A stretch of 64,000 nucleotides of DNA, from assembly GCA_963920705.1 (NCBI GenBank), contig OY987231.1, positions 7,619,424 through 7,683,423 of the forward strand, read 5' to 3'. This stretch comes from Odiellus spinosus (taxonomy: Eukaryota > Arthropoda > Arachnida > Opiliones > Phalangiidae). The notes under the pieces were generated by a model, which did not search any database, was not told the origin of the DNA, and saw only the letters and a list, made by a program, of their open reading frames with translations. Positions 13,710-56,545 of this stretch are shown piece by piece (position 1 is the first letter of the stretch; each line of letters opens with the position of its first letter). The translations under genes were made by a program, and so were the position numbers.

Positions 13710-14638
13710 AATGAGGCTGTCACGGATATGTCATAAACTCCTAATGGAAATTGAGTAGCATTTTCGTAAAAACCATTAAAAACCGATTCAGAATATATGT
13801 AAATATGTCATAGAAAATATTACCGCGACAGTAAAAATACGTATTTACAGAGGCATATAATAACCCCTTCGGGGGGGAAGTATGAAAGCCCCTATACTAC
13901 CAATGCTAAAAATCACGAACAACAAGAGCCCGCTGCTGACTATCTAGGCCACTAGCTCGCGCTGGACTTCTCAATGTCGCTACTCTAGTAAATGGTCTTT
14001 GTATAAACAAGACGGCTCGATTTGTGTTTAGAACTTCCTGTCTCAGGAGTCAGGCTGTCTGTTAAAATGGAGTCGAAGGTTGACTTCATCTCGCAAGTTC
14101 CGTAGGGAAAATTTAGTGAGGTTCAAAATGGTGTAACCATTTTTTGGGAGTAAAGCGGTGTGTCGATCCGCCGAGATTTACGCCGGGCACTTGTTGTTCG
14201 TCGATTTTGCCTACCTTTCATACTTCCCCCCGAAGGGGGTTATTATATACCTCTGGTATTTATAATCGCCATTTTCGAGATTTTTAGAATAAAAATTCCC
14301 CGCAATACTACGTCATCACTATCGACGCCTGGCTATTGTAGAGCCTGCAGTTTATTCTCGCGCGTTCTGGCACAAGTGATAAGGTTGCTTTCGAGCGGTC
14401 TTTTTCGTAAAAGTACTTAATCCAGAAAGTCAACTACCTTTCTTCTGAAAATTATCGTTAATTACGTTCCAGAAATAAACTACGTCATATATTAGGGGGA
14501 AAATGACCCATATATTTTGGATATTTACTTTTGAAGTTTTTTTCGAACTCGTCAACCGAATATTTCGTTTTAATAGTATGATAAAACTAAAAATATAATA
14601 CATAGCCATTCGAAAAAAATAATGGTGACAGCCTCACT
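13710..14638 (+). mobile_element. Family A MITE interrupted by family L, TTAA-flanked
   Basis: TTAA at 13706-13709 and 14639-14642 bracket ends AATGAGGCTGTCACGG and GTGACAGCCTCACT. Removing the L insertion at 13848-14255 leaves a roughly 515-bp family A element. This copy defines both family A termini. Confidence 0.9.
13848..14255. mobile_element. Family L inverted-repeat element, 408 bp, 7-bp TSD, nested in A
   Basis: The left end CAGAGGCATATAATAACC is mirrored by GGTTATTATATACCTCTG, and the repeat continues through CTTCGGGGGG and AAGTATGAAAG. Exact 7-bp duplications GTATTTA (13841-13847 and 14256-14262) show where it inserted into family A. The interior of about 300 bp is GC-richer and unmatched elsewhere in the window; the frame at 14160-14420 crosses the element boundary and is not a gene. 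Confidence 0.9.
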
Positions 14639-14664
14639 TTAATTAATAAACCTTAAACAAAACA

Positions 14665-14745
14665 TGGCGTTCATAAGCGTCCTCTAACGGCATAAACAGT
14701 GCTAGCATAAGTAGGAACTAACAAAACCACTTGCCTACTTTATGG
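14665..14745. mobile_element. Family U fragment
   Basis: GGCGTTCATAAGCGTCCTCT followed by AACGG and AAACAGTGC matches one end of the element at 4055-4232. The other half is missing. Confidence 0.55.
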
Positions 14746-14754
14746 AAGCATAAT

Positions 14755-14890
14755 GAAATGAAAATTAAAACCGACGTTTTAAAAAAGTCTTTAATTTTTC
14801 AGTTTCTTGTGATTAAATTTGCGAGCTTCGCGTGAGATGAATTTGACGAGGTCCTAATCGAGTGGCAGATTACGAGTCTGCTTTTTAAAG
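14755..14890. mobile_element. Family H fragment
   Basis: AAATGAAAATTAAAACCGACGT, then TTCTTGTGATTAAATTTGCG and GGTCCTAATCGAGTGGCAG, match the H copies at 31195 and 33062. Confidence 0.5.
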
Positions 14891-14919
14891 GGAGGATGAA
14901 GAGGAAAATCAAGTTTTTT

Positions 14920-15350
14920 TATTGACTCTTCTACTAATTATAAGACCTATCCGCGTAGTTAATCATTCGGAAAATATATCCCAATGATTTTAAAAATCAA
15001 AATAGATCCAGATTTCACCGTTCCTTTAAAATGACGCCCTCCAACCAATCGCGTAACGCCTTGCCTTCCAGCGAACAAAATACTCGTGACACGCGCTATG
15101 TCGAGCGCGATTATAGCGCGAGATGTGATAAATAATGCACGCGATGTGACAAACGTGGCACGCGATGTGACAAACGTAGCACGCGTGAGGTCGCGTGCCA
15201 CTAGTATTTTGTTCGGTGTAAGGCAGGGCGTTACGCGATTGGTTGGAACAACGAAATCCGGATGTATTTTGATTTTTAAAATCATTGGGATATATTTCTC
15301 GAATGATTAACTACTGGAATTGGTCTTATAATTCGTAGAAGAATCGATTA
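14920..15350. mobile_element. Family S foldback element with GC-rich centre
   Basis: Long inverted arms: AATTATAAGACC, AGTTAATCATTCG, ATATCCCAATGATTT and CCAACCAATCGCGTAACGCC on the left are mirrored by GGCGTTACGCGATTGGTTGG through GGTCTTATAATT on the right. The centre holds a small tandem of GCACGCGATGTGACAAACGT, which creates opposing open frames (ARDVTNV-like) on both strands. No second copy is in the window and the TSD is unclear. Confidence 0.78.
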
Positions 15351-15479
15351 ATTTTCTTGTTCACATTCCCTTTATCGGATTTTTTAAGTTGTACGCGACT
15401 AGGGATTACGTGTGCTACAGTCTAAACCCGATTTATATTTATGTTCGGAATAACAAGTTGGGAAACCAAAATATAACCT

Positions 15480-17135
15480 CCCCGACCCCGACGTTAAGGT
15501 AATCTAACCTAACCTAACCCTACCTAAAATAAAAGATGAAAAGAAATGTAGAGTATTGGATGAGTAGAAGAAACAGCGAAATAGGCAAAATATTATATCA
15601 CATTGAACCTATATGCATTTCTTCAGTATACCAACACAACCCTAAATAATTCTCTACTTAAAACCAAACCTAACTAGAGAAAAAAAGGAAAATAAATAAG
15701 ATATAACCACATAGATTTCAAGATAAATAATCCAGTCCATAATTCAGTATTAAAACAAAAAAATCAGAATTAAGACAACTGAAATTAGCAATCTTTGGTA
15801 ATATGTAAAATAGCCCTTACACGAACAATTTAAGTAAAGCAAATTATCAAATAAACGCCAAATAAGTCAATTAATTAAAATTAAAAATATTTATCTTACC
15901 ACTACCAAATAGCGGGCAGAAAACACAGACATCAAGATAACATTAGCAAAATAAATTTTCAACACCGGTAATCCTGAGAACTAGATTCTACAAAATCTTC
16001 TGGAATAATAAATTTATTTTAATCTAAAAAATATAAAATCTTAAAAAAAATATCTATACAAATAACATATTGATAAACCAATTAAAATTAGATGCGAAAA
16101 ACATTTAATCTCGATATGAGATTAAATACACAAGGTCAAGGTTCTTCTTTTAAAACCATATCAGAATTTTGACGGTTGTAGAGTATTTGTAGACCAAGTA
16201 ACGTGAAAAGGCAAAATGTTATATCAAATTGAACCTATACATGGCTTCAGTATACAACACAAGTTGTGAAACAAACGTTATTTTACGTGACTACACACTA
16301 GCTAAAACATCACCGAAAATAAACGACAGTAGGCATTAATAACTCTTTTACGAAAACAAAAAATTACTACAGAGAAAAATGAGTCAGAAAAAAAAAACCT
16401 TTTGATTTCCAAACTAATATTTCAGTCACAACTCAGTAATAAAAATTAGAGTTCAGGTCAATGAAAATATACCAAAAATGTCCAAACAAATAATAAACGC
16501 ATCAAATAAATGATTCAAATTCAAAATTACTTCCTTACCAATAAATTGTATTCAAACGAATGAAACTTAATTTAAAATTTCAACGAGTCAAATCTCTAGA
16601 GAACAAACTTCGTCGAAGATTTCAAAAGAAATGAAACGATTTTACGTTCAATAAATTAAAATTTAGATAAGCAAGGTCAAGGTCCCTCAGTAAAATAATA
16701 TCGGCGTTAAGAAAACTAGAGTATTTGTAGACCAAGTAACGTCATTAGGCAAAATATTTCATCAAAATCAAGTTATGACCTCGGTATCGTCATATAACCG
16801 TAAATAAACATATTCAATAAACAATTAACGAATAAGCTTTCCGCATAACACGCTAAACTACGAACTGTGACGTACAATTTCGCTTTTTGGTGCTACACGA
16901 CCTACAGATACCTTATAAGCCTACGTCTAAAAACACGTTTTTTGGTGATAATGCTGTGAGTAAAGAATAGATGTTTCTCTTTTGGCCCTACCATAAATTT
17001 TTTATATTTTTTTTTTCTGACAGGGCAGGCCTGAGTAAAAATATACCAAGTTGTGAAACAAACGTCATTTTACGTGACTCCACACTAGCTAAAATGTTAC
17101 CGGAAATACACGACAGTAGGCATTAAAAGCCTGAT
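15480..17135. repeat. Degenerate large repeat units
   Basis: GAGTATTTGTAGACCAAGTA recurs at about 16182 and 16720, and GGCAAAATRTTATATCA with a GAACCTATA stretch at about 15580, 16210 and (weaker) 16748. GTTGTGAAACAAACGT followed by an ACACTAGCTAAAA stretch recurs at 16263 and 17049. The spacing is not regular. I see no gene; this may be diverged copies of one long element. Confidence 0.55.
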
Positions 17136-17402
17136 TCTATTATACTTAATTGGGATTAACATTAAATTCATGTATGAAAAAGTGTGAAACTAAAACTAGC
17201 AGTCATCACGAGATCCAATCACGTGATTCTTTTCCTCACTCTGTCTACATTTCACTCTTGGGTCAACCATATCATACATGACTATTAAAACACGAGAAAT
17301 TTCAATGTCAATCCGGTTTAAGAAAGTTCGTCAATTGTTAATTGTGGCATGACTAAAGCCGGATTCACACAGACCTATTTTCACGCTTTTCACGGTCACG
17401 CG

Positions 17403-17796
17403 CGAGGGGCAATGGGCAAACCACTCTTGGAATCAGGTGTACAAACTAAATGGAATCACGCGAATCGATTCGGAATCAGGAGAATCGATACGGAATCACG
17501 CGAATCGATTCGGAATCACACGAATCGATTCGGAATCACACGAATCGATTCGGAATCAGGAGAATCGATACGGAATCACGCGAATCGATTCGGAATCACG
17601 CGAATCGATTCGGAATCACGAGAATCGATACGGAATCACGCGAATCGATACGGAATCACGCGAATCGATTCGGAATCACGAGAATCGATTCGGAATCACG
17701 AATCAATTCGGAATCACGCGAATTGATTCGGAATCACTGACAATCAAATGAATCTGGAATCAGGTGTACAAAATTTTTCTAGAGTGGTTTGCACCT
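17403..17796. mobile_element. Family N (CGAGGGG group) element carrying a 20-bp array
   Basis: The left end CGAGGGGCAATGGGCAAACC with CACTCTTGG and the right end AGAGTGGTTTGCACCTCG match the 164-bp copy at 48579-48742. GAATCAGGTGTACAAA lies just inside both ends. The candidate TSDs GTCACGCG/CTCGCGCG match at six of eight positions. The core has grown by tandem expansion. Confidence 0.72.
17450..17742. repeat. 20-bp minisatellite (CGGAATCACGCGAATCGATT)
   Basis: About 15 units of CGGAATCACRMGAATCGATW. Three overlapping plus-strand frames (ESRESIRNH-like) are this array read in frame and are not proteins. A few units of the same sequence sit in the family N copy at 48630-48710. Confidence 0.93.
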
Positions 17797-17879
17797 CGCT
17801 CGCGCGTGCTAATGGTACTTCTATGAGTTCACGAGCGTGAAACGCGTAAAAACAGGTCTGTGTGTATCCGCGTTAACCT

Positions 17880-18735
17880 GGTTCGCTCTGCGCATGTACA
17901 CAATTTCGCACGAAATACATTTGCGAAACGCGCGAAAATTATAAAAAAATTAATTTGAAAATCCGTGCCAGTAATTAAAACCAAATACGCCACTGTTTGC
18001 AAGTTTGCCAGAAGATTACGATATTTCCCCATACATGAAGCTGATTCTCCCAAGAATATCAAAAAAAATCACATTGATATTTTCCATGCGTAAAGAGGTT
18101 TCCGACTTCAAATTTAGTGGTCTACACATACTCGCGTGCTGGCGAACTCGATTTTACACGTGTCACAAATACACTGGAAACCTACTCTACTTCTGTTCGA
18201 GGAGAGTTTTCACGACTATCATTTTTCTTAAGTGGTTTAACATTATGCATAAATCCGCCTCAGCTTCAAATCTCATACACCAATTCCCCTTGAACTGGTT
18301 AAAAATTCACCGAGTATAATCGAAGTTATTATTGTCTTATCTCTTATCTAAATTATGTTGTTTCAATCTTCCATACCCGTGTAAACGCACCTTTATTTAA
18401 GTTCTTCAATCCACCCCAAGTTTGCACCAGAGATAAGCCTATACTGCCCGTTATACCTTTGCTTTTTCGAGTAAATGATATATATGGAAAATAGCTTAGG
18501 CGCATGCTGCCAACTAAAACTGCCATTAATTCTCAAATAACTTCTAAACTATCTCGAATTTTAAATTAATTTTTCGACTTTCTAATTAATTAGATTAAGA
18601 TGAACCATTTTAATATTTTTAATTATAATATAAATTAATATTGCGTTTCATTTCCCTAAACAATCACCCCATGAGGCTAATTTGCATTCGTTCCAAAAAG
18701 ATACTATATAAACCTTTCGAAGGGCTATATTAATC
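17880..18735. other. No gene seen
   Basis: The frames at 17829-18062 (minus) and 18005-18319 (plus) have no recognisable domain. Confidence 0.45.
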
Positions 18736-18739
18736 GAAG

Positions 18740-19300: not shown

Positions 19301-19329
19301 AAAAAATGTCCCTGAGCTATTCGAAGCTC

Positions 19330-19805: not shown

Positions 19806-19813
19806 GTACCGGA

Positions 19814-19966: not shown

Positions 19967-19969
19967 CCT

Positions 19970-20465: not shown

Positions 20466-20466
20466 A

Positions 20467-20955: not shown

Positions 20956-20959
20956 CAAA

Positions 20960-21297: not shown

Positions 21298-21335
<38 letters not shown>

Positions 21336-21660: not shown

Positions 21661-22255
21661 AGGGAGAATGCAACCTAACAACAATTGATTTTTTATCGAT
21701 TCCTTAACGTTTAAATAGCCCAAATCCAACAGTAAACAATTTAAGAGATAAATATTTAGAAGTAAATTTAAAACTTGCCCGGAAAATAGGCTTAACTTAA
21801 TTCATGGAGATCCTGAATTTCTTTGCATTGAAGGATCAGCGACCAATCGAATGTTATTGGGCCTTTGCTCATTGGTTAATAAAGCCGGCCTTCAATGCGA
21901 AGAAATTCAGAATATCTATGAATCCAGCTAAGCCTATTTTCAGGATAAGTTTTAAATTAATTTCTAGTTTGATATTTCTTTATATTTTGGTTTACTGTTG
22001 GATTAGGCCTATTTAAACGATAACGAATTAGAGGTCGCGGTTTGGTTAAGATAATTTCTGTTTGTTTTATCTTTATTCATATTTTGAAATTATCCACGGG
22101 AAATCTATGATAAATGCAATGTAATCACGAATAGTTAACCGATTATTTTTTATGATTAACTGATTAACCAAATATTTGTGGGTAATCTTGTTCAAACCCC
22201 GACCTCTATAAGGAATCGATAAAAAAATCACTTGTTGTTAGGGTGCATTCTCCCT
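21661..22255. mobile_element. Family C foldback MITE with a nested hAT-like element, TTAA-flanked
   Basis: TTAA at 21657-21660 and 22256-22259 bracket AGGGAGAATGCAACC and GGGTGCATTCTCCCT. Removing 22029-22208 and one TSD restores a normal family C length and the CGATAAGGAATCGATAAAA right arm. Confidence 0.9.
22029..22208. mobile_element. hAT-like MITE, 180 bp, nested in family C
   Basis: Ends TAGAGGTCGCGGTTTG and CAAACCCCGACCTCTA form a 16-bp inverted repeat with one mismatch. The first bases fit the hAT terminal consensus YARNG. The flanks are TAACGAAT (22021-22028) and TAAGGAAT (22209-22216), an 8-bp duplication with one difference. An inner GTTAACCGATTA / TTAACTGATTAACC dyad is present. 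Confidence 0.85.
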
Positions 22256-29962: not shown

Positions 29963-30333
29963 TTAATTACAACCGAACGCATTATGTTAATAAGGCGGCT
30001 AGAATTTTCATCTTACAATATATGATGGGTTTTCTTCGCTGCCTGGCTCTTAATTGCTACTATAAATAAAGTGGGGTGTTTTATTTGTCGGCTTTGAATT
30101 TCGGACGCTCGCTTTGAAAGATTAATTTCGCGCAAACGCTGTTTATCACAACAAATATTCCGGTTCCCATTCCCAAGAATTATGTGAATTTCAGAAATTT
30201 TAAAGTACCGTTGTTATTTAATACTTAAACGAATACATTTTTAAACGTTCTGTCTCGCTGGAATGTCGCGGAATAATGATTTAATTAAATGAATAAATGT
30301 CCTAATAAGTGTTAAACTTGGAATAAGTTACAT

Positions 30334-30650
30334 CAAGAATCCATTCAGGTTCCATAAGAATATGGGAGCATAGCTTTAGCCTCTGGTACCATCCTCCCAA
30401 ACTTTGTAACAAAAGTTCGTCTGCAATTTTCGCAACATTTGTACGCTTAGGTCTTTTTTCGGTCGGCTCCATTTTTATTACCCAAAATATTACGTCAGGG
30501 TCGTTAGTGGCGCGGGTTAATAATATAATGTCAGGAGCGATTTACTTGAAAAATCGATTCGAAGCGGACGAACTTTTGCTACAAAGTTTGGGAGGATGGT
30601 TATTGAATCGCGGCCCTCCCATATTCTTATGGAACCTGAATGAATTCTTG
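30334..30650 (+). mobile_element. Family G inverted-repeat element, 317 bp, 7-bp TSD (copy 1)
   Basis: It starts CAAGAATCCATTCAGGTTCC and ends GGAACCTGAATGAATTCTTG. The second inner inverted repeat is CATCCTCCCAAACTTTGTA against TACAAAGTTTGGGAGGATG. The exact 7-bp TSD is GTTACAT (30327-30333 and 30651-30657). Copy 2 at 31562 is the same element in reverse orientation. Confidence 0.92.
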
Positions 30651-30887
30651 GTTACATGAAATAGGCATATTATAGTTTTTTTAATTGTATGGTTATGTGA
30701 ATGTGTATATATTTTTTATCCTAATTAAGCTCGTACGTCATAATTACATTTATATTTTTAAATTATAATTAAAACTAATTAACTGTAAATTAAAGGAAAA
30801 CCTTTAATCAAATGCTTTTACGAATTTTTCTAAAGAAAATATGGAACCTGACTCGATACGGGTCTTGTCAAATTGATCTCGAATTAG

Positions 30888-31341: not shown

Positions 31342-31561
31342 TTAAACAAATATTTATTTTTATTATTACGGTAAACATATCTATATATTATAACGATCTT
31401 TACGAAAATGCTACTCAAATTCCATTTGTTAACTATTTAAAAATACGTGAGTTTCATTTTTATGCTTTAAAAAGCGACTATAGCGCCATAAGAACCGCCT
31501 TCTAACCCTACCCTAAACTCAACTTATTTAAAATCGTATAAAGTTCAATATACATTTATTC

Positions 31562-31877
31562 CAAGAATCCATTCAGGTTCCATAAGAATATGGGAGGGCC
31601 GCGATTCAATAACCATCCTCCCAAACTTTGTAGCAAAAGTTCGTCTGCTTCGAATCAATTTTTCAAGTAAATCGCTCCTGACATCTATTATTAACCCGCA
31701 CCACTAACGACCTTGACATAATATTTTGGGTAATAAAAATGGAGCCGACCGAAAAAAGATCTAAGCGTACAAATGTTGCGAAAATTGCAGACGAACTTTT
31801 GTTACAAAGTTTTGGAGGATGGTACCAGAGGCTAAAGCTATGCTCCCATATTCTTATGAAACCTGAATGGATTCTTG
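31562..31877 (-). mobile_element. Family G inverted-repeat element, 316 bp, 7-bp TSD (copy 2)
   Basis: It is the reverse complement of copy 1 over its full length with few differences. Ends CAAGAATCCATTCAGG and GAATGGATTCTTG are flanked by exact 7-bp duplications TTTATTC (31555-31561 and 31878-31884). The 64-codon frame starting at 31739 lies mostly in the right arm and runs past the element; copy 1 carries the same start region but it is not evidence for a gene. Confidence 0.92.
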
Positions 31878-32147
31878 TTTATTCGCTATGTACAAATCCA
31901 TTAAGCCTATTTATTATAATAATAGACTTATGACAAATCTTATAGATTACCATCTCTTTCTATAATCGCATCCTACACTGAATGAAAAATCGTCCGATTT
32001 TTCTTCCATCTCACTCAACCTACACTGATTTTAAATACCCATATAGATGAAACCCAGACTTTAAGGCAGCTTGTTTACCATTTAGGGCCATTTTTGATTG
32101 CGCAAAACTAACTCCTTCAGACATTCACTGTTAAGGTTAAACTTTAA

Positions 32148-32561
32148 AGGGAGAATGCAATCTAACAACAAGTAGTTTTTTATCGATTCCTTATCGTTTA
32201 AATAGGCCTAATCCACCCGTAAAAAAATTTATTAACAAATATTAAACTAGAAATCAATTTAAAACTTACCCGGGAAATAGGCTTAGCTGGATTTTTGGAG
32301 ATCCTAAATTTCTTCGCATATAAGAGTCATCGACCAATGAGCAGAGGCCCGTCGTTAAGGCGAGATCTCCATGAGACTTCCACTAACACTCGATTGGTCG
32401 TTGACCCTTATATGCGAAGAAATTAATCATCTCCATTGATATATCTTCTGTGTAAGTTTTAAACTTATTTCTAGTTTAATATTTGTTTTAATGATGGATT
32501 AGGCCTATTTAAACGATAAGGAATCGATAAAAATCACTTGTTCTTTGGTTGCATTCTCCCT
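32148..32561. mobile_element. Family C foldback MITE, 414 bp, TTAA-flanked
   Basis: TTAA at 32144-32147 and 32562-32565 bracket AGGGAGAATGCAATC and GGTTGCATTCTCCCT. The central arms are the complement of one another (GTCATCGACCAATGAGC / CGATTGGTCGTTGACC). Confidence 0.9.
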
Positions 32562-32787
32562 TTAAGGGCCCCCTTCTTATAATAGCGTAGGGACAAAGAA
32601 CCGTGGGCAAAAACCCTCGACTTTATTTAGTCCTAACTAAAACTTAACGTGGGCTGCCATTAGGGTTAGCGTCATCAACTATTGTTCGATGCTATTGGAG
32701 ATATCAGAGCGGATAAACCCAGACTCTATATATACCTTCATTATTTTTGAAAATTTAAAGATCAAGCCGATTTCTTTGGTTATTCTA

Positions 32788-33055
32788 TAGCTACGTTCAC
32801 ACTAGGCCTTGGAATCGATTTAAATCGTTTCAAAACGTTTCGCTAGAGTCGTGTGAACGGGAAACCGTCTTTTGTCCAATCGATTTGATTCGATTTCTCG
32901 AAACCGCTTCGGGAACCAGTTTCGTACTGATTCGGTTTCATCAACCGATAGATGAAGCTACGATAAATCGATTTATAAAGATAATGCGTGTACACGTAAC
33001 GCCTAAAACGATTACTGGCGATTCGAATATCGGTTTGATGCTAGTGTGACCGTAG
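32788..33055 (+). mobile_element. Family D element (copy 2)
   Basis: TAGCTACGTTCACACTAGG at the left and GCTAGTGTGACCGTAG at the right are the best-preserved left and right ends of the family. Confidence 0.87.
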
Positions 33056-33215: not shown

Positions 33216-33720
33216 TTCTAACTTTGTTATACGAATAAAAGTTTAAGTGTAATCTCGAGTTGGCAGCGAACTCGAAGCTAAGCTCCCTTAATCACTACGT
33301 CAACAAATCAAAGTGATAAAATAATGATACGTATTTCTGGACGCGCTGCCGATTCGAGGTGAAATACTGGAATTGACTAAAAATAAAAAGAAAGGTGTAT
33401 TTTATTAGGCACTTTCTTTTATATGAAAATCGAGGAACCCAGCCAGGTTTTAAACAACTAGGGAATGATATGACTCACGTCGACCCTGCAGATGGTAAAA
33501 ACAGGGGGATCTCTATAAATAGGCCTATAAAACGTTACATAGTCTTCACTCTCTGGGGGGATTTTACTGTTATACAGAAATGGCAACCCGCGCTTTTTAT
33601 ACTACAGGCTAGAATACTGTTTAATGAAGGAGTCTGACGTTACGCCATTTACTTTAAAGGAAAAGTCTCAGGTTTTGGTTTTAAATATCAAATATGCAAT
33701 GAAAATCATCCATCCAGGTC
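33216..33720. other. No gene seen
   Basis: The frame at 33395-33637 has no recognisable domain. GCAGCGAACTCGAAGCTAAG near 33270 is an inverted partial match to 28165. Confidence 0.4.
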
Positions 33721-33721
33721 C

Positions 33722-34205
33722 TATAATTCCTATAAAATCCTATATTTTCAAAACTATTTCCTTGACATGTCCTATATTATCCTGTATTTCCTTGAAATGC
33801 CCTACATTATCCTGTATTTCCTTGAAATGTCCTATATTATCCTGTATTAGCTTGAAATGTCCTATATTATCCTGTATTTCCTTGAAATGTCCTATATTAT
33901 CCTATATTTCCTTGAAATGCCCTATATTATCCTGTATTTCCTTGAAATGTCCTATATTGTCATGTATTCCCTTGACATGTCCTATATTATCCTGTATTTC
34001 CTTGAAATGTCCTATATTATCCTGTATTTTCTTGAAATGCCCTACATTATCCTGTATTTCATTGAAATGTCCTATATTATCCTATTTACTTAAAATGTCC
34101 TGTATTAACCTGAATTTCCTTGAAATGTCCTATATTATCCTGTATTTCCTTGAAATGTCCTATATTATCCTGTATTTCCTTGAAATGTCCTATAAAGTCC
34201 TATAA
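33722..34205. repeat. 30-bp minisatellite (TTCCTTGAAATGTCCTATAT)
   Basis: About 15 units of TTCCTTGAAATGYCCTATAT plus TATCCTGTAT. Thirty is a multiple of three, so two long plus-strand frames (33624-34205 and 33857-34093) arise from the array alone. Confidence 0.94.
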
Positions 34206-34985
34206 TTTTGTGTTAATAAACATTTCGGGATCTAAAAATATCGAAGCGCTGTTGCATAAAACAAACTTGGCGCGTGTTTTGTAATAAAATCTCAAGTTTA
34301 ATCGGAGTTTGTAACGAAGTTATCACACACATCTAGCTTTGCATGTACATTTTAGCGTTCCCCACCGACAGACAGACAGACGTACTTTTTTTGATTTCTA
34401 ATCAGGATCAAGTTTGTTCTATGAAATAATGAAAATAGAAAACCATTTACTTTTAAGGTCTTATTTTTTAGTTATTCGTTGGGTCTGCAGTTCTATTTCA
34501 ATATCTTAATAACTAAAAACTCGAATTAAAATGTGAATGAGACTCGACCTTTAAGAGAAAACTTATTTTTCCGCATTTGTCGGAGTCTCGGAGACAAAGA
34601 GCAGGCCTTTGTTTTTATGACCCCAAACACGTCTGCTCGCTTCAAAGTCGAGCAAAAAGTGCAATGTGAAGTGTATAGCTTGCCATCCACTATGAACCTG
34701 ACCAGCAGAGCAAATACCCCATACCATAAATCAAGTCAAAAATGGGCTAAGAAAGGTTTTTACGAGCGATTTTGCGAATGTAGTTATTGGTTGATTTGAA
34801 CCATACGTTGTTTTTTGACCATAATTTTTAGAGTAATTGTTACAAATGGCGCATGATAATTTAATATGGTACATATTTAGTATTGAGATCGTTATACTTG
34901 TGAAAACACTCAGTCGAGAGTCAAACTACGTCCTATTTGTAAAATATTTCTAATTTAATTTAGTTTTAGTAGTAAAATTGTTTTT
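34206..34985. other. No gene seen
   Basis: A short (GACA)n sits at 34368-34380. The 88-codon frame at 34533-34799 has balanced composition but no domain I recognise and no splice evidence; I leave it unassigned. Confidence 0.35.
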
Positions 34986-34987
34986 AC

Positions 34988-35515
34988 TATCAAACACTCT
35001 TAATTTACAATGTCCGTACGCCCGTAACTTTTCCCAGAATGTTCTAGAAGGTTCCAGAAAAATCTGGTGAGGTCTAGAAAACTCTGGAAAGTACTTAAAA
35101 GTACTTGGGAAGTTCTGGAAAATTCCGGAAATTCTAGAAAATTCTGGAAAGTCTAGAAAATTCCAGAAAAGTCTAGAAGTTTCTAGAAAAGTCTAGAAAA
35201 GTCTAGAAAAGTCTAGAAAATTCTAGAAAAATCTAGAAAATTCTCGAAAAGTCTAGAAAAGTCTAGAAAAGTCTAGAAAAGTCTAGAAAAGTCTAGAAAA
35301 TTCTAGAAAAGTCTAGAAAAGTCTAGAAAAGTCTAGAAAATTCTAGAAAAGTCTAGAAAATTCTAGAAAAGTCTAGAAAAGTCTAGAAAATTCTAGAAAA
35401 GTCTAGAAAATTCTAGAAAAGTCTAGAAAATTCTAGAAAAGTCTAGGAAATTCCTAAAATTTCTAGAAAAATCTAGAAAATTCTGTAAAATTCGGAAAAG
35501 TTTCATTTTATATGT
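34988..35515. mobile_element. Family P element housing a 10-bp array
   Basis: CAAACACTCTTAATTTACAA with TGTCCGTACG at the left matches, inverted, TTGTAAATTAATAGTGTTTG at about 45522-45541, as does the AGAATGTTCTAGAAGGTTCC stretch. The interior is the TCTAGAAAA array. The right limit is uncertain. Confidence 0.55.
35090..35480. repeat. 10-bp tandem array (GTCTAGAAAA / TTCTAGAAAA)
   Basis: About 38 units, nearly perfect at 35170-35450. The GTCTAGAAAA and TTCTAGAAAA subtypes alternate irregularly. Wherever a TTCTAGAAAA unit follows another unit, the junction GAAAATTCTAGAA is a perfect GAAnnTTCnnGAA, the binding pattern of heat-shock factor; at least eight occur. AAAA tracts repeat every 10 bp, in phase with the helix, so the DNA should be curved. 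Confidence 0.95.
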
Positions 35516-35965
35516 CCCGTGATTTTTCACGAGTTTTTTCTATTTAACTTATAAATTTCATCCTAAATATAGAAATTTCCCACAAATTTTAGTAATATTA
35601 TTTCAGCTTTGTAAATATAGATGGAGCCACCGTCTCCGAAAAAAAAAACCTAGAAAGATAAAAACTCTTTCAACCAACCCATTAAACTCTTTTATGTTTT
35701 ACGGGCGAATGAATATTGACTAAATAATAATGCTTCTAGATAGAGAAATTCAAGAGGAGATGACAAAATGTTGAAAGTTAAAGCGGCTTGATACAAAATG
35801 TTAAACTTCATTGATAAAACGTAGTATAGTTGCCAACTTCTGATGAAAAAATGTAATAAAAAATTGTAATTCAAACAGAATATTTAAGCTATCTTGCAGA
35901 GAGCGAAAGAAATGCAATAGTTTTTATATTAAATTGATATTAATTTAATGCGTGATTGAAGGTTA
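35516..35965. other. No gene seen
   Basis: AT-rich. The minus-strand frame at 35692-35874 is unsupported. Confidence 0.5.
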
Positions 35966-35969
35966 TTAA

Positions 35970-36384
35970 AGTGAGAATGCAACCTAAAAACAAGTATTTT
36001 TTTATGGATTCCTTATCGTTTAAATAGGCCTAATCCACCAATAAAAAGTTAATAAAATAAATATTAAACTAGAAATAAATTTAAAACTTGCCCGGAAAAT
36101 AGGCTTAAAGGGAGTCATGGAGATCCTGAATTGCCTCAGTGTAAGGTCTAGCGACCAATAAGCGAAGGCCCGTCGTTCACGCGAGATCTCCACGTGACTT
36201 ACAATCGCGTTCGATTGGTCGCTAGCTAGACCTTATTCGCGAAGAAATCAGGATCTTCATGAATCCAGCTAAGCCTATTTTCTGGTTTAATATTTGTTTG
36301 TAATTTTGTTGACTGTTAGAGTAGGCCTATTTAAAAGTTAATGTATCGATAAAAAAAATTGTTGTTTGATTTTGCATTCTCCCT
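35970..36384. mobile_element. Family C foldback MITE, 415 bp, TTAA-flanked
   Basis: TTAA at 35966-35969 and 36385-36388 bracket AGTGAGAATGCAACC and TTTTGCATTCTCCCT. The GTCTAGCGACCAAT / ATTGGTCGCTAGC centre is well preserved. Confidence 0.9.
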
Positions 36385-38514: not shown

Positions 38515-40145
38515 TTGCTTTTTGGGATTTAATATAAAGAGTTTATCTCGATAGTCTAGAGTTTTTTTCGAGTGGGTGATGACACGAATGACTAGCTGAA
38601 GTTTGCTCTTAAAGTTGTTTAATCAGCTTACGCAATATATTATGTAAAGGAGTGGTTATGAATTATATCGGTTTATTATTATAATTATGGTTTTTTACGA
38701 TAATTCTGCACGAGTTCTTTCGAAATGGCGGTATATTTCAATTTTGGGGGCTCCTCGCGTTCGTTTGTGTACTTACGCAATATGGTTTTAATCATAAATT
38801 ATTTCTTATTATAATTTTATGAAACACTTTTTACTCATCAGTATATCCTAAGTTTTCATTCGAGTATGGTTTTAATTTTTTTTTGCAATTAGTTAAATTT
38901 TCTTTTAGATTAGTTGGATGTAATTCAAACACCTTTATTGATATTCAACTCATCTTAAGCTTTTGTTTGAGTACTTTGAAGTGTACTTTTAATCTACTCA
39001 AAAAGATTAAGTCAAATAAAATTTTGAGTTTTCTTTTAGTACCATGAATCAGTTTGCATCGTATTGTACTCGTTCTAAGCTTTAATATGAGTACTTGGAA
39101 GCTATAGTTTAAATCTTGCACGATTAGTTCAATATCGGTTCTCTTTAGTTCAAATTAGTTCATTTTATTCCAAATTATGGCTTGTTGGTACTCATTTGAA
39201 AGACAATAACGCGTACAATTCGAATAAGGATGTAGTTTATTCAATCTCCCGTGTTTCCGATTTATATAAAGATTTATAGCCTTTCGATAAAATTTAAGTA
39301 CGAAATCAAATAAAATAAAAAGCTCCTCATTCTTATTTCAAATTCAATAAAACGAATAAAACAAATTTTACAACCTTTGAAACGCGTAAAAACAACGAAC
39401 CATAAATTCTCATTCTATAACTTGTTGATTTTAAATTACTTATTTGAATGTCAGCTAGTCGTTTCGATTTATAGGTACACAGCCTTTTTTATTTATTTAT
39501 TTTCGCGGTATATATATATCGATTTTCATTTTTATTTTTTGCTTTGGCGTGCGAGTGAACCTTTTCAGTCATCTTGGAATTTTGAAAATTGCCATTTCGC
39601 CTGTGATTTTTTTTCTTTTATTTCTTTCTTCTTATTGATATTGAGGAGAAATAAAAGTGGAAATCGCGAAAACTAATAAAATAGTATTTTCTTTAAGGCT
39701 TCAAGAAGAAACCTTATTGAAAAAAATGTTACTCCAAATCCCAAAAAGCTTTATTACTATCGCTTCTTTATTGTTACAACTTATATACAGCCTATATTGT
39801 TTGAATCAGTTCAGTTCAGCGAGGGAGGTTATAGCTTTGATGAAACTGTAAAGTCAAATTTACCGTAACTATATGTCTATATTTTTCTCGCAAAGGTCAA
39901 GCCCATACTGTTCAAGAACTTTACGAGAGCACCTTTCGTTTTCAACACGAACAAATTGAGAATACATTAAAGTGATAGTACCACGACATTCCCCGATTTG
40001 CGAATATTTTACCCTTTTTCCGACGTCATAACATTGTCACTCGACAAAATTTAGAACTGGGAGTTTTTTGTTACTTGAGTTTTAACTGGCGAGCTCGTGA
40101 CGTTACAGCATTGTCGTAAATTTTCCAAGATCATTTGTAATGAAT
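38515..40145. other. No gene; degenerate roughly 120-bp repeat at 38835-39125
   Basis: CTCATCTTAAGCTTTTGTTTG with GAGTACTTTGAAG recurs in diverged form near 38835, 38945 and 39066. The frames at 39377-39851 are AT-rich with no domain I recognise. Confidence 0.45.
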
Positions 40146-40149
40146 ATTT

Positions 40150-40655
40150 TTGGTACTAAAACTTATATATTTCATGATAAATGTTGACCAGTTTAAGTAT
40201 TTCATCCCAAATTTTGACCACTTCTAGTATTTAATCCCAAATGTTGACCAGTTCATGTACTTCATCCCATATGTTGACTAATTCTAGTATATCATCCCAA
40301 ATGTTGAGCATTTCCAGTATTTCATCTCAAATATTGGCCAGTTCAAGTATTTCCTCCCAAATGTTGACCAGTTGAAGGATTTCATTCCAAACGTTAACCA
40401 GTTAAAGTATTTTATCCAAAATTTGACCAGTTCAAGTATTTCATCCCAAATGTTGGCCAGTTCTAGTATTTCATCCCAAATGTTGGCCAGTTCTAGTATT
40501 TCATCCCAAATGTTGACCATGTTCAAGTAGTTCATTCCAAATGTTGACCATTTCTTGTATTTCATCCCAAATGTTAACCAGTTCTTGTATTAATTCAATC
40601 CCAAATGTTGACCAGTTCAAGTTTTTCATCCCAAATGTTGACCAGTTCGTGATAC
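40150..40655. repeat. 30-bp minisatellite (TTTCATCCCAAATGTTGACC)
   Basis: About 17 units of TTTCATCCCAAATGTTGACC plus AGTTCTAGTA. The minus-strand frame at 40284-40565 is the array in translation. Confidence 0.93.
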
Positions 40656-44014: not shown

Positions 44015-44274
44015 AGCTATGGTCACACTAGCATTTCTTAATCGATTTCAAACGGTAAAATCATCGTTTTAAACGTCACGCGTTCACGCTTTATCTTTAT
44101 AAATCGATTTATTGTAGCTTCATCTATCGGTTGTTGAAACCGAATCGATACGAAACTGGCTCCCGAAGCAGTTTCGAGAAATCGAATCAAATCGATTCGA
44201 GAAAAAACGGTTTCCGGTTCGCACGACTCTAGCGAAATGTTTTCAAACGGTTTAAATCGATTCCAAGGCCTATA
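44015..44274 (-). mobile_element. Family D element (copy 3), minus orientation
   Basis: AGCTATGGTCACACTAGC at the start and TTCCAAGGCCTATAA at the end. The interior is the complement of the copies at 30888 and 32788. Confidence 0.82.
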
Positions 44275-45119
44275 ATTAAATCGGAAGCGCCACTCTTTGG
44301 AGAAATTCCGGAGTTAGGGGAAGACTATATAGCTAAGCGCGGCCAGCCTAAATTCCATCCCTCTTTCCCGACTCAAACTATCAAGGAATAGTCCAAATCA
44401 CTCGAGCCAGAAAGGGGTAATGACGTTTTTGTCTATTTTTAAGTGACGTAAAACTGGATCTTTGCTGATAATATTAAGCTACGGGGCGTTGTTTACTTTT
44501 ATAGAATAAAATGATAGACTTTTGTTTCTACTTATTCCCCGCGCTATGAGTAGATTTGTCCTCCTGATCGTCACTGATACTATCCCTTGAACCGACCTTA
44601 CATGGTAATGACTTCGCTGCCAACTGGGATTGACCTCAGGGTTACCGGCCATTGTCTGACATATTGGTCTCCTTTTATTACTTAGAAGGCTGTGGTCCTT
44701 GGAAGAGAATGAACTTCGAATAAGCCCTCGAAGTTTTCCTTTTTTTTTTTTTTTTTTTTTTTTTTCTATGGAACAGTTTTTTTTCTTTATCTTTTTTTTC
44801 TGATGGAGTTCATAGTTCCCTTGGCGAGATTTTGCCACAATGGTTTCCATTAATTCCCGGGCTTTGGAGGACAATTAGTTTTGTCCGTGCTTGGAAAGCT
44901 TGTCGATAGCTTTTCCCCGAGCGTATTTCCCCCGTCACTTGGCTTTGTCTTAATACTCCCGGTCGGGAATGTTAACTTTGAACCTTTGGCAGAAAAAAAA
45001 AAAAAAAGAAAAGTACCATCTAGATTGATGAGAGTAATTTGGGGTGTAACCACGTGATAGTGTCAAAATACAGTACGAGCTACGGGTTGTAATCAACGGT
45101 AATTGACTAAGTGTAATGG
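44275..45119. other. No gene; poly-T near 44740-44765
   Basis: The minus-strand frame at 44479-44874 runs through a poly-T/A tract (a lysine run) and is not credible. Confidence 0.45.
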
Positions 45120-47122: not shown

Positions 47123-47813
47123 AGTGAGGCTGTAACGGATATTTCTTTAGTTCCAAAATGGAATTTGAAAGATCGTTAGAAAAAATGCCATAGAAAAAAT
47201 TACAAGGACAATAGAAATAAATATTTAATATAAAACAAAAATTATCCGTAATACTACGTCATCACTATGGTCGTGTTGTCACGTGATAGGGTTGCTTTCG
47301 CGCGTTTTTTTCCGTGAAAGTACTTTAACTCATTCATTAATTACTTTCCAGAATACTTTTTCGTCATCAGTTTAGTGTAAAAAATTAAATCTATATATTT
47401 TGTAAATTTTTAAATATGGCTTATTACAGAAGTAGATGAAACCCTCCTTTGAAGTCTACTACTCTAATGTTCGATATAGCGCTCCTCTCTGTATGGGTAA
47501 AATTCCCATTTTACGAGATCGGAGGGGTCCTACTTCATACCCCCTGTCTACGAAAAATTGGAAATTCTCTCTCGCCACAAACGACGACGTTTTTTTGACG
47601 AACTCCAAGGCTGCTAGAGATATTCGCTTGACGAACTCCCGCTCCGAAAATATCTACCGTTAGGAGGCGTACGAATCGCGCTTTTTGAAACTAACCCATA
47701 CAGAGAGGGGTAGACAAGACTGGGAGTAATAGACTTCAAAGGAGGGTTTCATCGGCTTCTGATATTAAAAAAAACTAAATAATTATGCGTTTAAAAATAT
47801 CGACAACCTCACT
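47123..47813 (+). mobile_element. Family A MITE carrying a family B insertion, TTAA-flanked
   Basis: TTAA at 47119-47122 and 47814-47817 bracket AGTGAGGCTGTAACGG and CGACAACCTCACT. B occupies 47427-47761. The A body is shortened compared with the other copies. Confidence 0.88.
47427..47761 (-). mobile_element. Family B inverted-repeat element, 335 bp, nested in A
   Basis: CAGAAGTAGATGAAACCC through TTTGAAGTCTACTACTC at the left is mirrored by GTAATAGACTTCAAAGG to CATCGGCTTCTG at the right. Its orientation is opposite to that of the B at 56194. The TSD is not clean here. Confidence 0.85.
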
Positions 47814-51475: not shown

Positions 51476-51564
51476 ATGGCGTTACGTAAAGGTCATCCGC
51501 CGAAAAAGGATCAAGTTATGAATGGTTTACTCGCGGAATTACAGAAGAATCAATTGTTTCTGAG
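51476..51564 (+). CDS. Gef26: PDZ-GEF alternative first coding exon (N-terminus of a short isoform)
   Basis: This open segment encodes 29 codons plus two bases (AG) and ends at a GT donor (AG|gttaat). Joined to the exon at 52353, the split codon becomes AGT (Ser) and the frame runs directly into the conserved FGKRS motif. The ATG has a good start context (A at -3, G at +4). An in-frame TGA at 51449-51451 shows it is the first in-frame methionine. The peptide starts MALRKGHPPKKDQ and is basic and polar; I do not recognise it as a domain. Longer family members have a cyclic-nucleotide-binding-like region before FGKRS, so a product starting here would lack it. The CpG-rich promoter-like DNA just upstream fits an alternative first exon. 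Assignment to the gene rests on splice compatibility and on the next exon; the exon itself is inferred. Confidence 0.62.
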
Positions 51565-52352
51565 GTTAATTTATCTGTTTTTGAATTAAGCCGTTGTCAA
51601 ATCGTATTTGGACGGGGGAATGATCAGTCTCTAATGATTCTAATCGGTGTAACTTTGACTGTAACTGAGTATCGAATGCTGTAATCAGTTACAAAATTTG
51701 GTCTTGTAATGAAATTATTAATTACCGCGTTCAAGTTGAGGTCCAAATACGATTTCAGAACGACTTACGTGTTTGTGTAATAAATCAATAGGTAAATGCT
51801 AAACTTGTTTCAGTTTTGTACAAAATTAGGTTACAAACTCTATTTAGGCTTAGCGATTAATTTTACTTATTAAGAGTGTATATACATCAATCTGACTAAT
51901 TTTAGGCTTAGCACGCCGTATAAAATTACGTATATATTGAAGTTTTATTACGAGGGGCTGAGCTGATTACTCAGGTTAATCGGTGTAAAAGCCTAAAGCT
52001 TTGATTGTACTAAAATGATTACCATAAGCTGGGAATCGCTGTTCATATTTTAAATTTAGGAAAGTGGCTTTAACCCCTCGGGAAATTTAAATTTACGCAA
52101 ACGGTATGTAGTAACATAAAAACCAAACTTAGAATTTTATCAAAGATTTAAATCAATTTTTTGGTTACAACTTCCTCGAGTTAGCCTAAATTACATTTAA
52201 ATTCTAATTAATATAAGGATAATACATCGATAAAAATCAATTTGTTTGATACATTTCCGTGTTTCAAATCGAAATCTATATCTTATCATATATAATCCCA
52301 ATTTTGTTTAATCACCTTTACTGATAAAAATGTTACTTTTTATTTATTACAG
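51565..52352 (+). other. Intron 1 of the PDZ-GEF short isoform
   Basis: This 788-base intron has a GT donor after AG and an AG acceptor preceded by a T-rich tract. It carries one intact-looking CGAGGGG-family element (51951-52080) and a weaker related stretch around 51613-51710 (TCGGTGTAACTTTGACTGTA). The intron would place transposon-derived sequence within a few hundred bases of both splice sites. Confidence 0.6.
51951..52080. mobile_element. Family R (CGAGGGG group) MITE inside PDZ-GEF intron 1
   Basis: CGAGGGGCTGAGCTGATTAC to AGTGGCTTTAACCCCTCG, with TTAATCGGTGTAAAAGCC inside. It is related to 23065-23226. No exact TSD was found. Confidence 0.75.
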
Positions 52353-52428
52353 TTTTGGTAAACGTTCTGGCGGTGGTGGAAGACGTATGAATGAATGTCT
52401 CATCTTGGAACCTTCTGAAATGATCGTG
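52353..52428 (+). CDS. Gef26: PDZ-GEF (Rap guanine nucleotide exchange factor) internal exon
   Basis: This is a 76-base exon between a pyrimidine-rich acceptor (ttttatttattacag) and a consensus donor (GTG|gtaagt). It enters in phase 2 and leaves in phase 0. It encodes the block FGKRSGGGGRR then ECLILEPSEMIV. That matches the RAPGEF2/RAPGEF6/Gef26 family, where the same block (FGKRS..., EC.VLEPSEMIV) joins the first cyclic-nucleotide-binding-like domain to the linker before the second. These proteins are guanine nucleotide exchange factors for Rap GTPases with cNMP-like, REM, PDZ, Ras-association and CDC25 catalytic domains. They act at the plasma membrane and cell junctions. None of those later domains is in the window, so the downstream intron must exceed 11.5 kb. 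I recognised the motif from memory and did not search; the family seems secure, but orthology to one vertebrate paralogue cannot be decided. Confidence 0.85.
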
Positions 52429-52434
52429 GTAAGT

Positions 52435-52968
52435 TTATAGTTTAATTTATTTTTACTATACTTCATCACGTGACAATCTGACGTTAATCTTCCACGTAAG
52501 AGTATGTAAAACCACGGTAAAATAGTCATTTGAATTTCATTGACACAGCTTCTGTAAAATATAAGAATTTTCTATCGTAACTTACAAGTCTTTTACTCTT
52601 TTTGAGTTGAAACAGTTCAAAAAAGGGTAATTTGGTTCAAAATTAAATTTAAATATCGTTGAATAGTCTTTCATTTTAACCATCAGAATATGTTTAATTT
52701 ATATTTAATCACGACGTTATACATATACGTACTTTATGACAAACAATTCTAGAGATTGCAAAAGTTTGCTAATATCGAAACTGTAAACGTATTTTCATTA
52801 CTGTAGTCCGCACTAGCAGATGCAACTTATTTAATGATTCATTTTTCCAATCGGCCATTTTACTCTAATTATTACATCTGGAGACTGCCATTCAGAGTGT
52901 TGTTACTTTTCATAACCAAGACTACAATTCCCAACCGATCGGAAAAGGATTTATAGGCGAAATACGCG
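52435..52968. other. PDZ-GEF downstream intron, no further exon seen
   Basis: AT-rich. I searched by eye for a phase-0 exon starting with a V/I-D-Y-like codon set after an AG and found none. Confidence 0.5.
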
Positions 52969-52976
52969 TGTAAACC

Positions 52977-53138
52977 CGAGGGGTCAGACACTCTTGAATT
53001 CGCTGTACACCTGAGTTCACTGAGTTCAGCTTTGACAGTGCATTGAATTCGAACTCTTATGAACTCTGAGTTCAGCTTTGATAGTGCAAAGAGTTCTAAA
53101 ACTTTGTACACCTGAGTTCGCGAGTGTCTGCCCCCTCG
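52977..53138. mobile_element. Family E hAT-like MITE, 162 bp, intact with 8-bp TSD
   Basis: CGAGGGGTCAGACACTC and GAGTGTCTGCCCCCTCG ends with exact 8-bp duplications TGTAAACC (52969-52976 and 53139-53146). This is the cleanest copy of the family. Confidence 0.93.
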
Positions 53139-53187
53139 TGTAAACCTCAAAAATTCTCTATTAAAAAATTTAAATATGTTAATAACA

Positions 53188-53700
53188 GGGTTCGTACGCG
53201 ACCTGGGAAACCTGGAAAAGTCAGGGAATTTGGAAATTGGCCGAGGAAGGTTAGGGAATTTGGAAATTGGCCCAAAAGGTCAGGGAATTAGAAAATTGTC
53301 CCAAAAGGTCAGGGAATTTGAAAACTGTCCCAAAAGGTCAGGGAAATGTCACGGAATTTTAAAATTGACCTTAAAGGTCAGGGAATTGGAAAATTGACCT
53401 TAAAGGTCTGGGAAAAGTCAAGGAATTTGAAAATGAGCCGAAATGGTTCGAGAAATTAAATATTTAGGTATATATACAGGAACTGTTTATGATTGGTTGA
53501 ACAATTAATTAATTTACATAAAAATTCAAATTTTTCCTCTTATTCTGAGCAAATTATCGACTATGATTGATAAACTATATCAATTAAAAAGTGGGAATTG
53601 TCCATGAGAATAAATTCATGAAAACTATTTCAAGGAAATTAGTTAGAAATGATCAGGGAAAACCTGGAAAGTAAAAGAAATTAACTTGTAAAATTTGTAC
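53188..53700 (+). mobile_element. Family Q element with expanded core
   Basis: It starts CAGGGTTCGTACGCGACC. A tandem core of AAGGTCAGGGAATTTGGAAA-type units (about 29 bp, 53225-53440) is followed by ATTGGTTGAACAATTAATTA and a worn TTTGTACGAAG end. The frame at 53176-53397 is this array. Confidence 0.68.
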
Positions 53701-53897
53701 GAAGTATTTTACATGAAAATACTTTTCCAAATCGACAGGGCATGCCACTTAGTTTCTGGCTCCTGAGTTTACGTACTTTTAATCAGGTTTAACATTTTAA
53801 TCAGGATCTTATTGAAATAATTTTGTAATAGATAGCTGCAAGACACCTTTTTCTCTTACGTATTCTTTTCTCGGGTGTTTATTTTAGGGCTTTGAAC

Positions 53898-53995
53898 AAA
53901 ACCTGGTGTTCAAAAGGGTCCTCTAATGGTCCAAACAGTGCAGCCAAAAGTATATTGTAGGTTTTTATTTCGGGAGCTATAGGGAACTAACAGTC
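53898..53995. mobile_element. Family U fragment
   Basis: CTGGTGTTCAAAAGGGTCCTC with CTAATGG and AAACAGTGC matches the U terminus at 4055. Confidence 0.5.
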
Positions 53996-54229
53996 CTGAT
54001 CTTACAACGTCACACCCTTCTATCTCTTACCTCGATGTTATATCTATCACTTGGTACACTACACTACATTATCCACAGATACCTATAGGGGTTGCGTGAC
54101 GTGTCAGCGTCGTCCCTTCCTACCTAACTGTTAGCTCCCTGTAGGGGAATTTTCTAAAAACCGCTTCAAAGGTTGAAAAAAAAAAAAAAAAATGTTTCCT
54201 AGACTAAATAAAAGAGATGGTCCATTTAA

Positions 54230-54390
54230 GCCGCGTTTTCAAACGAAGTTGAAGTTAGATGAAGCTTTTGTGGAAAAACCTGAAAATGTCAGGGAATATT
54301 TGGTTAAACCTGAAGATGTCAGGGAATATTGTGGAAAAACCAGGAAATTTCAGGAAACTCAGTTTCGCAAATGTTGTACGAACCCTGTAC
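54230..54390 (+). mobile_element. Family Q right-end fragment
   Basis: AAAATGTCAGGGAATATTTG units followed by GTTGTACGAACCCTG, the inverted form of the Q start. The frame at 54192-54395 is this repeat. Confidence 0.6.
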
Positions 54391-54394
54391 GTTA

Positions 54395-55175
54395 ACAATC
54401 TTCAATTGACAGAGAATCCGCTATGATATAAGCGAAAGCAATTTAAGCTTGAAAAAAGTTGGCTTTATGCTTAAATCAAATCAAAATGGTGGCGCGTGGA
54501 AAAACCATAAAATGACGTCACTCGTCGGGTTCATAATTTCAGATAGCGTCTCTTTTTTGCATTAAATAAACACTATAGGCGGGGAAACTGTAAAACATAT
54601 ACGTTTAGGTGCTTAGCCACCTGCTTAATGCTCCAGCAACACACGCAGAGCGCTCCTTTTATAAGTCTCTCTTTTTCTCGTTCGATAAATATCCGACATC
54701 CCGCATCTACAGTTCGTACGAGAAATCATCTTGAATTTTCAACGCCATTATATTTACGCGAGTACCTACGCTCTACCAAATAACAGAAAACCTAGATTAA
54801 CGTAAAGTAAACTTGGTACTCGCTGCAAACTTGGCTTAAATAATACATTTATATGTGTATAACATACACGAAATCAGTCGAAATGTATCCACGCACGCCC
54901 ACGCGCGTAAAATGTCTGCTTGATGGCGCCTCTACGCGCGCTAAATATCGAGAAGCTAATACCTCTTTCGGTCCACGCCCTTTCGGACCAATTCGAACGG
55001 TCGTTGTACTGTTTGACCCTCATCAGTTATCGCCGGTATTGACTAATTATTATAGATTTTATACGTGATAAACTGACATATACAAGCGTGTATTGTAATA
55101 TTATCCGCCCAGTTATACATATTTAGGACGTAGCAACTCAACATTTTTAGGCGACTGGCCATACGTATTGGTAAA
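54395..55175. other. No gene seen
   Basis: The CpG-containing frame at 54853-55068 has no domain I recognise. Confidence 0.4.
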
Positions 55176-55179
55176 TTAA

Positions 55180-55600
55180 AGAGAGGATGCAACCTAACAA
55201 GTGATTTTTATCGATTCCTTATTGTTTAAATAGGCCTAATCCACTAGTGAAAAAATTGACGAACAAATATTAAACTAGAAAAGTAGAAAGAAATTTAAAA
55301 CTTACCCGGGAAATAGGCTTAGCGGGATTCATGGAGATCCTGATTTCCTCGCGTATAAAGTCTAGCGACCAATCGAACGCGATTGTAAGTCTCGTGGAGA
55401 TCTCCTTTGCTCATTAGTCGCTAGACCTTACACGAAGGCAATTCATGATCTCCATGAATTACGCTAAGCCTATTTTCCGGGTAAGTTTTAAATTTATTTC
55501 TAGTTTAATATTTGTTTTGTAAACTTTTTATGTTTATTAGGCCTATTTAAACGATAATAATCGATAAAAAAATCTTTTGTTATTAGGTTACATTCTCCCT
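55180..55600. mobile_element. Family C foldback MITE, 421 bp, TTAA-flanked
   Basis: TTAA at 55176-55179 and 55601-55604 bracket AGAGAGGATGCAACC and GGTTACATTCTCCCT. The AGTCTAGCGACCAATCG / TAGTCGCTAGACC centre is preserved. Confidence 0.9.
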
Positions 55601-55748
55601 TTAAAGGGATAGTTTACCCCGTCCTGATCAAATTTTATCCTGGAAGTCAATTTAGGAAAAAATGGGTTCTTCACGAACTGAATAATTCAATTTCTTTAAA
55701 AAATTGTCGGGGATCTCGATAAACTGAAGATCAAGCCAAAATAATTAA

Positions 55749-56545
55749 AATAGGACTGCCATTTCCAAATGAAAATTGAGTATCATTTTCGGAAAGATCG
55801 TTAAAAAACGATTCAAAATTTATATACATATGTTATAGAAAATGATTACGGCGACAGTAAAAATAAATATTTTATAATCGCCATTTATGAAATTTTTAAA
55901 ATAAACATTTTACGCAATTTTGCGTCATCACTATGGTCGCCTGAATATTGTAGATCCTACAGTTGATTCTTGGGCGTTCTGGCACGAGTGATAAGGTCGC
56001 TTTCGAGCGGTCTTTTTCGTAAAAGTACTTAATCCAGAAAGTCAACTACGTTTCGTAGGAAAATTATCGTTAATTACGTTCCTGAAATAAACTACGTCCT
56101 ATATATTTTTGAAATTATCATTTTAAAGTATCTTTCAAACGCGTCAACCGGCAAAGATATAAAATTTTGAATAAATGGCGTTTTAAATAGTATCAGAAGC
56201 CGATGAAACCCTCCTTTGAAGTCTATTATTCCCGGGTCTTGTCTACCCCTCTCTGTATGGGTTAGTTTCGAAAAGCGCGATTCGTACGTCTCCTAACGGT
56301 AGATATTTTTGGAGTGGGAGTTCGTCGAGTGAATATCTCTAGCAGCCTTGGAGTGGAGAGAGAGAATTTCCAATTTTCCGTAGACAGGGGGGTATGAAGT
56401 AGGACCCCTCCGATCTCGCAAAATTGGGAATTTTACCCATACAGAGAGGAGCGCTATATGGAACATTAGAGTAGTAGACTTCAAAGGAGGGTTTCATCGG
56501 CTTCTGATAGTATGATAAAACTAAAAATGTAATCCATGTGCATTC
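55749..56545 (+). mobile_element. Family A element carrying a family B insertion
   Basis: TTAA (55745-55748) precedes AATAGGACTGCC, a shortened A start. The body then follows family A from AAATGAAAATTGAGTA to GATAAAACTAAAAATGTAA. The right terminus is eroded. B lies at 56194-56506. Confidence 0.8.
56194..56506 (+). mobile_element. Family B inverted-repeat element, 313 bp, 7-bp TSD, nested in A
   Basis: CAGAAGCCGATGAAACCC to GGGTTTCATCGGCTTCTG, with the inverted match continuing through TCCTTTGAAGTCTA. Exact 7-bp duplications ATAGTAT (56187-56193 and 56507-56513) reproduce the uninterrupted family A sequence once one copy is removed. Confidence 0.92.

Follow-up and report, generated by a model that had tools for sequence, protein, structure and literature searches.

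We describe four families of short repeated elements, here called K, L, G and B, in a 64,000-nucleotide stretch of the genome of the arachnid Odiellus spinosus (assembly GCA_963920705.1, contig OY987231.1, positions 7,619,424 to 7,683,423 of the forward strand; hereafter the window). Members of all four have precise ends and are flanked by 7-bp target-site duplications. They are most probably four separate families of miniature inverted-repeat transposable elements (MITEs) mobilised by P-superfamily transposases that cut with a 7-bp stagger. We infer the link to P parents from full-length P elements of the same genome, which the MITEs match in the length of the terminal inverted repeats (TIRs), in the 7-bp duplication and in target preference.

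Four MITE families with 7-bp duplications

In the window, the duplications around K, L, both G copies and B (Table 1) are exact at 7 bp and do not extend to 8, and five of the six complete copies found there have an intact one; in the sixth, the second B copy, four of the seven duplication bases differ. The TIRs are about 32-41 bp long. The two G copies are 96.5% identical and lie in opposite orientation. Between families there is no convincing similarity (best cross-family E 0.2), in agreement with the preliminary description of this DNA, which had called the families unrelated. The span it gave for them, 13848..56506, leaves K outside.

Table 1. Elements of families K, L, G and B in the window (positions are those of the window).
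Feature	Coordinates	With duplication	Strand	Length	TIR	Start	7-bp duplication	Remarks
K element	2384-2687	2377..2694	.	304 bp	~35 bp	CAAGAAGGATC	ACGACGC	duplication on both sides
L element	13848-14255	13841..14262	.	408 bp	41 bp	CAGAGG	GTATTTA	
G copy 1	30334-30650	30327..30657	.	317 bp		CAAGAATCCATT	GTTACAT	
G copy 2	31562-31877	31555..31884	.	316 bp			TTTATTC	
B element	56194-56506	56187..56513	.	313 bp		CAGAAGCCGATG	ATAGTAT	
Second full-length B copy	47427-47761		-				not intact	more diverged, 88% identical
B copy truncated by left window edge	1..209		+					matches at 1-36 and 62-209

To determine the duplication length beyond the window, we searched the assembly (443 Mb, 286 contigs) and, from 40 scored copies per family, read the borders of the 30 best for K and the 8 best for L, both sets including the window copy. 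For G the borders of 20 copies were read (rows 2-21), and for B likewise 20 (rows 2-13 and 15-22; row 14 was left out as a likely near-duplicate). An exact 7-bp duplication was found at 70 of the 78 loci: 29 of 30 for K, 8 of 8 for L, 17 of 20 for G and 16 of 20 for B. The eight misses comprise five loci with one mismatch (one K, two G, two B), two B loci with two and one G locus with five. None of the 78 loci has an 8-bp duplication, the fewest mismatches at that length being three. The exact 7-bp duplications reported earlier for the window copies are thus confirmed across the genome, and the mixing of lengths within families, raised at that time as a possible objection, was not seen. Merging loci with the same flanks reduces the 29 exact K loci to 25. 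One L locus, L002, is probably part of the same composite as the window copy and not independent of it, since its match continues into the flank.

These counts refute the idea that the 7-bp agreement is a matter of chance or of how borders were chosen. The diverged B copy of the window, without an intact duplication, would fit such an artefact, which is nevertheless next to impossible given the agreement in every family at borders fixed by the terminal repeats.

All three families for which termini were counted are abundant. Exact 21-mer termini of K occur 826 + 846 = 1,672 times in the genome, exact 25-mer termini of G 1,799 + 1,787 = 3,586 times and exact 21-mer termini of B 9,358 + 9,424 = 18,782 times, with no occurrence of the reversed control in any case. 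The B count corresponds to about 9,400 copies. Among the best-scoring copies, identity to the window copy is 96-98% for K and G, 93-96% for L (86% at L002) and 81-94% for B.

P elements of the same genome

The RNase H domain of P transposases (PF21787) is encoded at no fewer than 150 scored places in this genome (386 candidates), many of them in long open reading frames, and the GTP-binding insertion (PF21788) at no fewer than 144. Some P families have near-identical recent copies. Flanks on both sides were fetched for 13 P groups and both ends could be resolved for six: L019 (5,670 bp), L028 (4,609 bp), L024 (4,581 bp), L032 (4,140 bp), L010 (4,426 bp) and L037 (3,777 bp). In the other seven groups (L013, L018, L025, C16:6742736, C7:1639397 and two multi-copy groups on C1) the ends were not found. 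A scan of 30 P loci with 1.5-kb flanks resolved no ends, and neither did a rescan of nine loci after their 5' flanks had been extended by 0.5 kb.

In five of the six resolved families all 11 insertions carry an exact 7-bp duplication. The duplications are GTCTGTC, ATATTAT, GATGTAT and GTCTAAG for the L019 family, CTTCAAA, GTATAAT, ATACAGA and GTAAAAC for the L037 family, and GTTAAAC, GTTTATA and ATCCGAC for the single insertions of L028, L024 and L032. The sixth family, L010 (L010 and L011; G000:C4 and G000:C11), has an exact 8-bp duplication at both insertions, GTTATAAC and AATGGAAC; the first is palindromic, which makes its border ambiguous by itself, and the second is not. Within the P superfamily of one genome, five 7-bp families therefore coexist with one 8-bp family.

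The protein assignments come from partial reading frames. In Pfam, L019 and L037 code for THAP, RNase H-like and GTP-binding insertion domains, L024 and L028 for the RNase H-like domain and the GTP-binding insertion, L032 for THAP and RNase H, and L010 for RNase H and the P helix-turn-helix domain PF12017. L019 aligns to the structure of the Drosophila P transposase, 6p5a (E 5e-19), as does a 334-aa piece of L010 (E 2e-5). TIRs measured in four of the full-length families are 29-38 bp long.

Short elements that combine P-type ends with 7-bp duplications are present as well, as reading of their borders shows. The terminus of L028 occurs at 37 + 48 places with at most two mismatches, and 62 of these 85 make up 31 pairs that face inward at a distance of 0.7-0.9 kb. 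Their ends differ from those of full-length L028 by one or two bases. All six derivatives read at their borders (823-894 bp) have a 7-bp duplication.

Target sites and the class of the transposase

A palindromic target preference, with T at the second and A at the sixth position (T2/A6), is seen in the four MITE families as well as in full-length P elements with 7-bp duplications. The T2/A6 score per site is 1.35-1.72 for K, L, G and B vs 0.66 for random 7-mers of the window, and 1.64 for the 11 full-length 7-bp P insertions. The consensus target of the insertions is approximately RTAWTAY. In the flanks of the four MITE families pooled, T at -3 and A at +3 reach 64%. With their 7-bp duplications, TIRs of about 32-41 bp and a palindromic target like that of the P elements of this genome, the MITEs fit the P superfamily, where duplications are 7 or 8 bp and TIRs about 30 bp long, although the target preference is not specific to P alone.

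If P transposases mobilise these families, an enzyme with a THAP domain and a split RNase H-like core carrying the GTP-binding insertion would bind the 32-41 bp TIRs, excise the MITE and insert it where the target is palindromic and close to RTAWTAY; filling of the gaps left by the 7-bp staggered cut would yield the 7-bp repeat.

Several observations weigh against a P origin. A search of 32 P stretches and another 19 flank pieces for the termini of K, G, L and B gave no P element that carries them, the P loci read to their ends being a minority of those listed. The MITE ends (CAAGAA, CAGARG) are unlike those of any of the six resolved P families. Two K ends that lie 5.4 kb from each other on C1 were considered as a parent and rejected: the pair has no duplication, and no P or hAT domain is among the matches listed there. 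The six L028 derivatives have a T2/A6 score of 1.17, which is not significant (p 0.06). T-3/A+3 is present in only 2 of 12 cases in the L028 derivatives and in 12 of 22 in the full-length 7-bp P elements, so this flank preference varies among families. Targets of hAT transposases also have T second and A second-last, and T2/A6 by itself does not exclude them.

We therefore considered whether the four families could belong to a hAT lineage whose duplications are 7 bp and not 8 bp long. The hAT dimerisation domain PF05699 is encoded at no fewer than 150 scored places in the genome, and the T2/A6 preference would suit a hAT transposase as well. CAG starts are frequent among hAT termini, and L and B start with CAGAGG and CAGAAG. 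It is the lack of any 8-bp duplication at the 78 loci that makes a hAT lineage unlikely; moreover, 7-bp duplications were demonstrated here for P elements and not for hAT, whose ends lay outside the comparison.

Neither blastn nor tblastx of K, G, L and B against the P loci that were read gave a parent. All that these searches for the termini brought up was an isolated B copy next to L024. A tblastx match of G to L019 (E 0.007) was judged on inspection to be a T-rich coincidence. In three places (G000:C275, G000:C107, G000:C33) a B copy stands at a constant 6.6 kb from a PF21788 fragment, and in C183 at 1.6 kb. We rejected this spacing as a parent link, as it looks like copies of one larger repeat. 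The parents of K, G, L and B may be among the P loci whose ends lie outside the reads, or they may be extinct.

The missing parent would also suit a single transposase from a superfamily not yet described, in which the ends are of a CARRAR type and the duplications 7 bp long. The starts of the elements are loosely alike (CAAGAA, CAGAAG, CAGAGG), and duplication length and target preference are the same in all four families. However, the termini diverge past the first few bases and 7-bp duplications are already explained by the P families of this genome, so that we regard such a superfamily as improbable. Mobilisation by P transposases remains the reading that we prefer. The preliminary description had left the choice between P-like and undescribed; the three matches to the P elements of this genome named at the outset support the former. 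It had also taken CA termini as a sign of P. The resolved full-length P elements do all start with C, but CA is not diagnostic, as two of the five 7-bp P families start with CG.

One transposase or several

The preliminary description had proposed one transposase lineage serving all four families. That proposal is not supported: the termini of the MITE families are distinct, and the ends of the five P families that already make 7-bp duplications all differ (CATAGACTAAG, CATCGACAAAC, CGTTGCCTACG, CACTACCTCC, CGGTGCCTCC), so a single shared enzyme is not needed. Because several P families make duplications of this length, its occurrence in all four MITE families does not establish that they use one enzyme. 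Since their four termini differ, each probably depends, or once depended, on a separate P partner.

We also examined how duplication length is distributed among the P transposases, in a tree built from the RNase H domains of 23 of 30 loci, with 7 near-copies omitted. Three of the 7-bp P families fall in one clade (100/98) and two in a second group drawn open (84/91), and the 8-bp family lies in another clade (100/100). The tree tool flagged a long branch, L034. A single branch parts the 7-bp from the 8-bp rows, which is not significant by itself, as 66 of 500 label shuffles were equally low. We offer tentatively, as a serious possibility though short of an even chance, that duplication length is set by the transposase clade and that several MITE families unrelated to one another, one of them numbering about 9,400 copies, arose from the 7-bp branches.

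Other features of the window

A 285-bp repeat family is present at 486-770, 5468-5752, 14259-14543 and 55871-56155. One of these copies begins where L ends on its right side, and another stops about 30 bp ahead of the duplication of B. L may have inserted within or beside this repeat; locus L002 apparently has the same junction of L and the 285-bp repeat as the window copy. The G element at 31562-31877 contains a 65-codon open reading frame with MEPTEKRSKRTNVAKIADELLLQ, perhaps a remnant of the first exon of the parent.

Another repeat family is found at five places or more (21661-22255, 32148-32561, 35966-36384, 12947-13329, 55180-55546). Some of its copies have TTAA beside inverted ends of the AGGGAGAATGCA type, and these are possibly TTAA-inserting MITEs, piggyBac- or Kolobok-like. 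The reading frames 32759-33046 (+) and 44041-44313 (-) have a common stretch, ...IDLIRFLETASG.SFV.IRF.QPIDEATINRFIKI..., and likely derive from a further repeat. Minisatellite arrays lie at about 35048-35570 (10-bp unit), 56956-57935 (40), 10166-10726 (33), 17403-17742 (20), 33666-34263 (30), 40117-40648 (30) and 3448-3989 (19).

Comparison with known systems

MITEs of the hAT superfamily are, like the families described here, short inverted-repeat elements, and many of them have a CAG start. Their duplications are 8 bp long, a length found at none of our 78 loci. The TIRs of the D. melanogaster P element, 31 bp, are near those of our MITEs in length.

The published comparisons that follow draw on excerpts of the papers cited. 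Both the D. melanogaster P element and the zebrafish THAP9 transposon have a transposase of the same type as the P families of this genome, with a THAP domain, an RNase H-like core and a GTP-binding insertion; they differ from the 7-bp families in their 8-bp duplications (PMC7776569). P elements of Anopheles gambiae have TIRs of 27-31 bp and 8-bp duplications (PMC1562414). As in O. spinosus, several MITE families accompany several P families in that genome. The Anopheles MITEs have 5' and 3' sequence in common with P elements and 8-bp duplications (PMC1562414), whereas here the duplications are 7 bp and no parent was found.

In a genome with both 7-bp and 8-bp P families, one can look for the part of the transposase that determines the spacing of the cuts. 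If length does follow clade, it would be a heritable clade trait, and mapping it onto the strand-transfer complex would become possible. The present results also suggest that, in such genomes, MITEs not yet classified are worth testing as P derivatives if their duplications are 7 bp long.

A 7-bp duplication in the P superfamily is already known as a kind from Galileo of Drosophila. Galileo makes 7-bp duplications with the consensus GTATTAC, three copies having 8 bp (PMC4168063). In D. buzzatii, shared 7-bp duplications together with near-identical terminal 40 bp were the argument for one enzyme serving the Galileo variants (PMC2775673). That argument fails here, because the four families differ from one another in their termini. 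The long terminal repeats of Galileo are also unlike the 32-41 bp TIRs of our MITEs. In its target, a 7-bp palindrome with the consensus GTATTAC or GTAGTAC (PMC4168063, PMC2775673), Galileo resembles the RTAWTAY sites of the O. spinosus MITEs.

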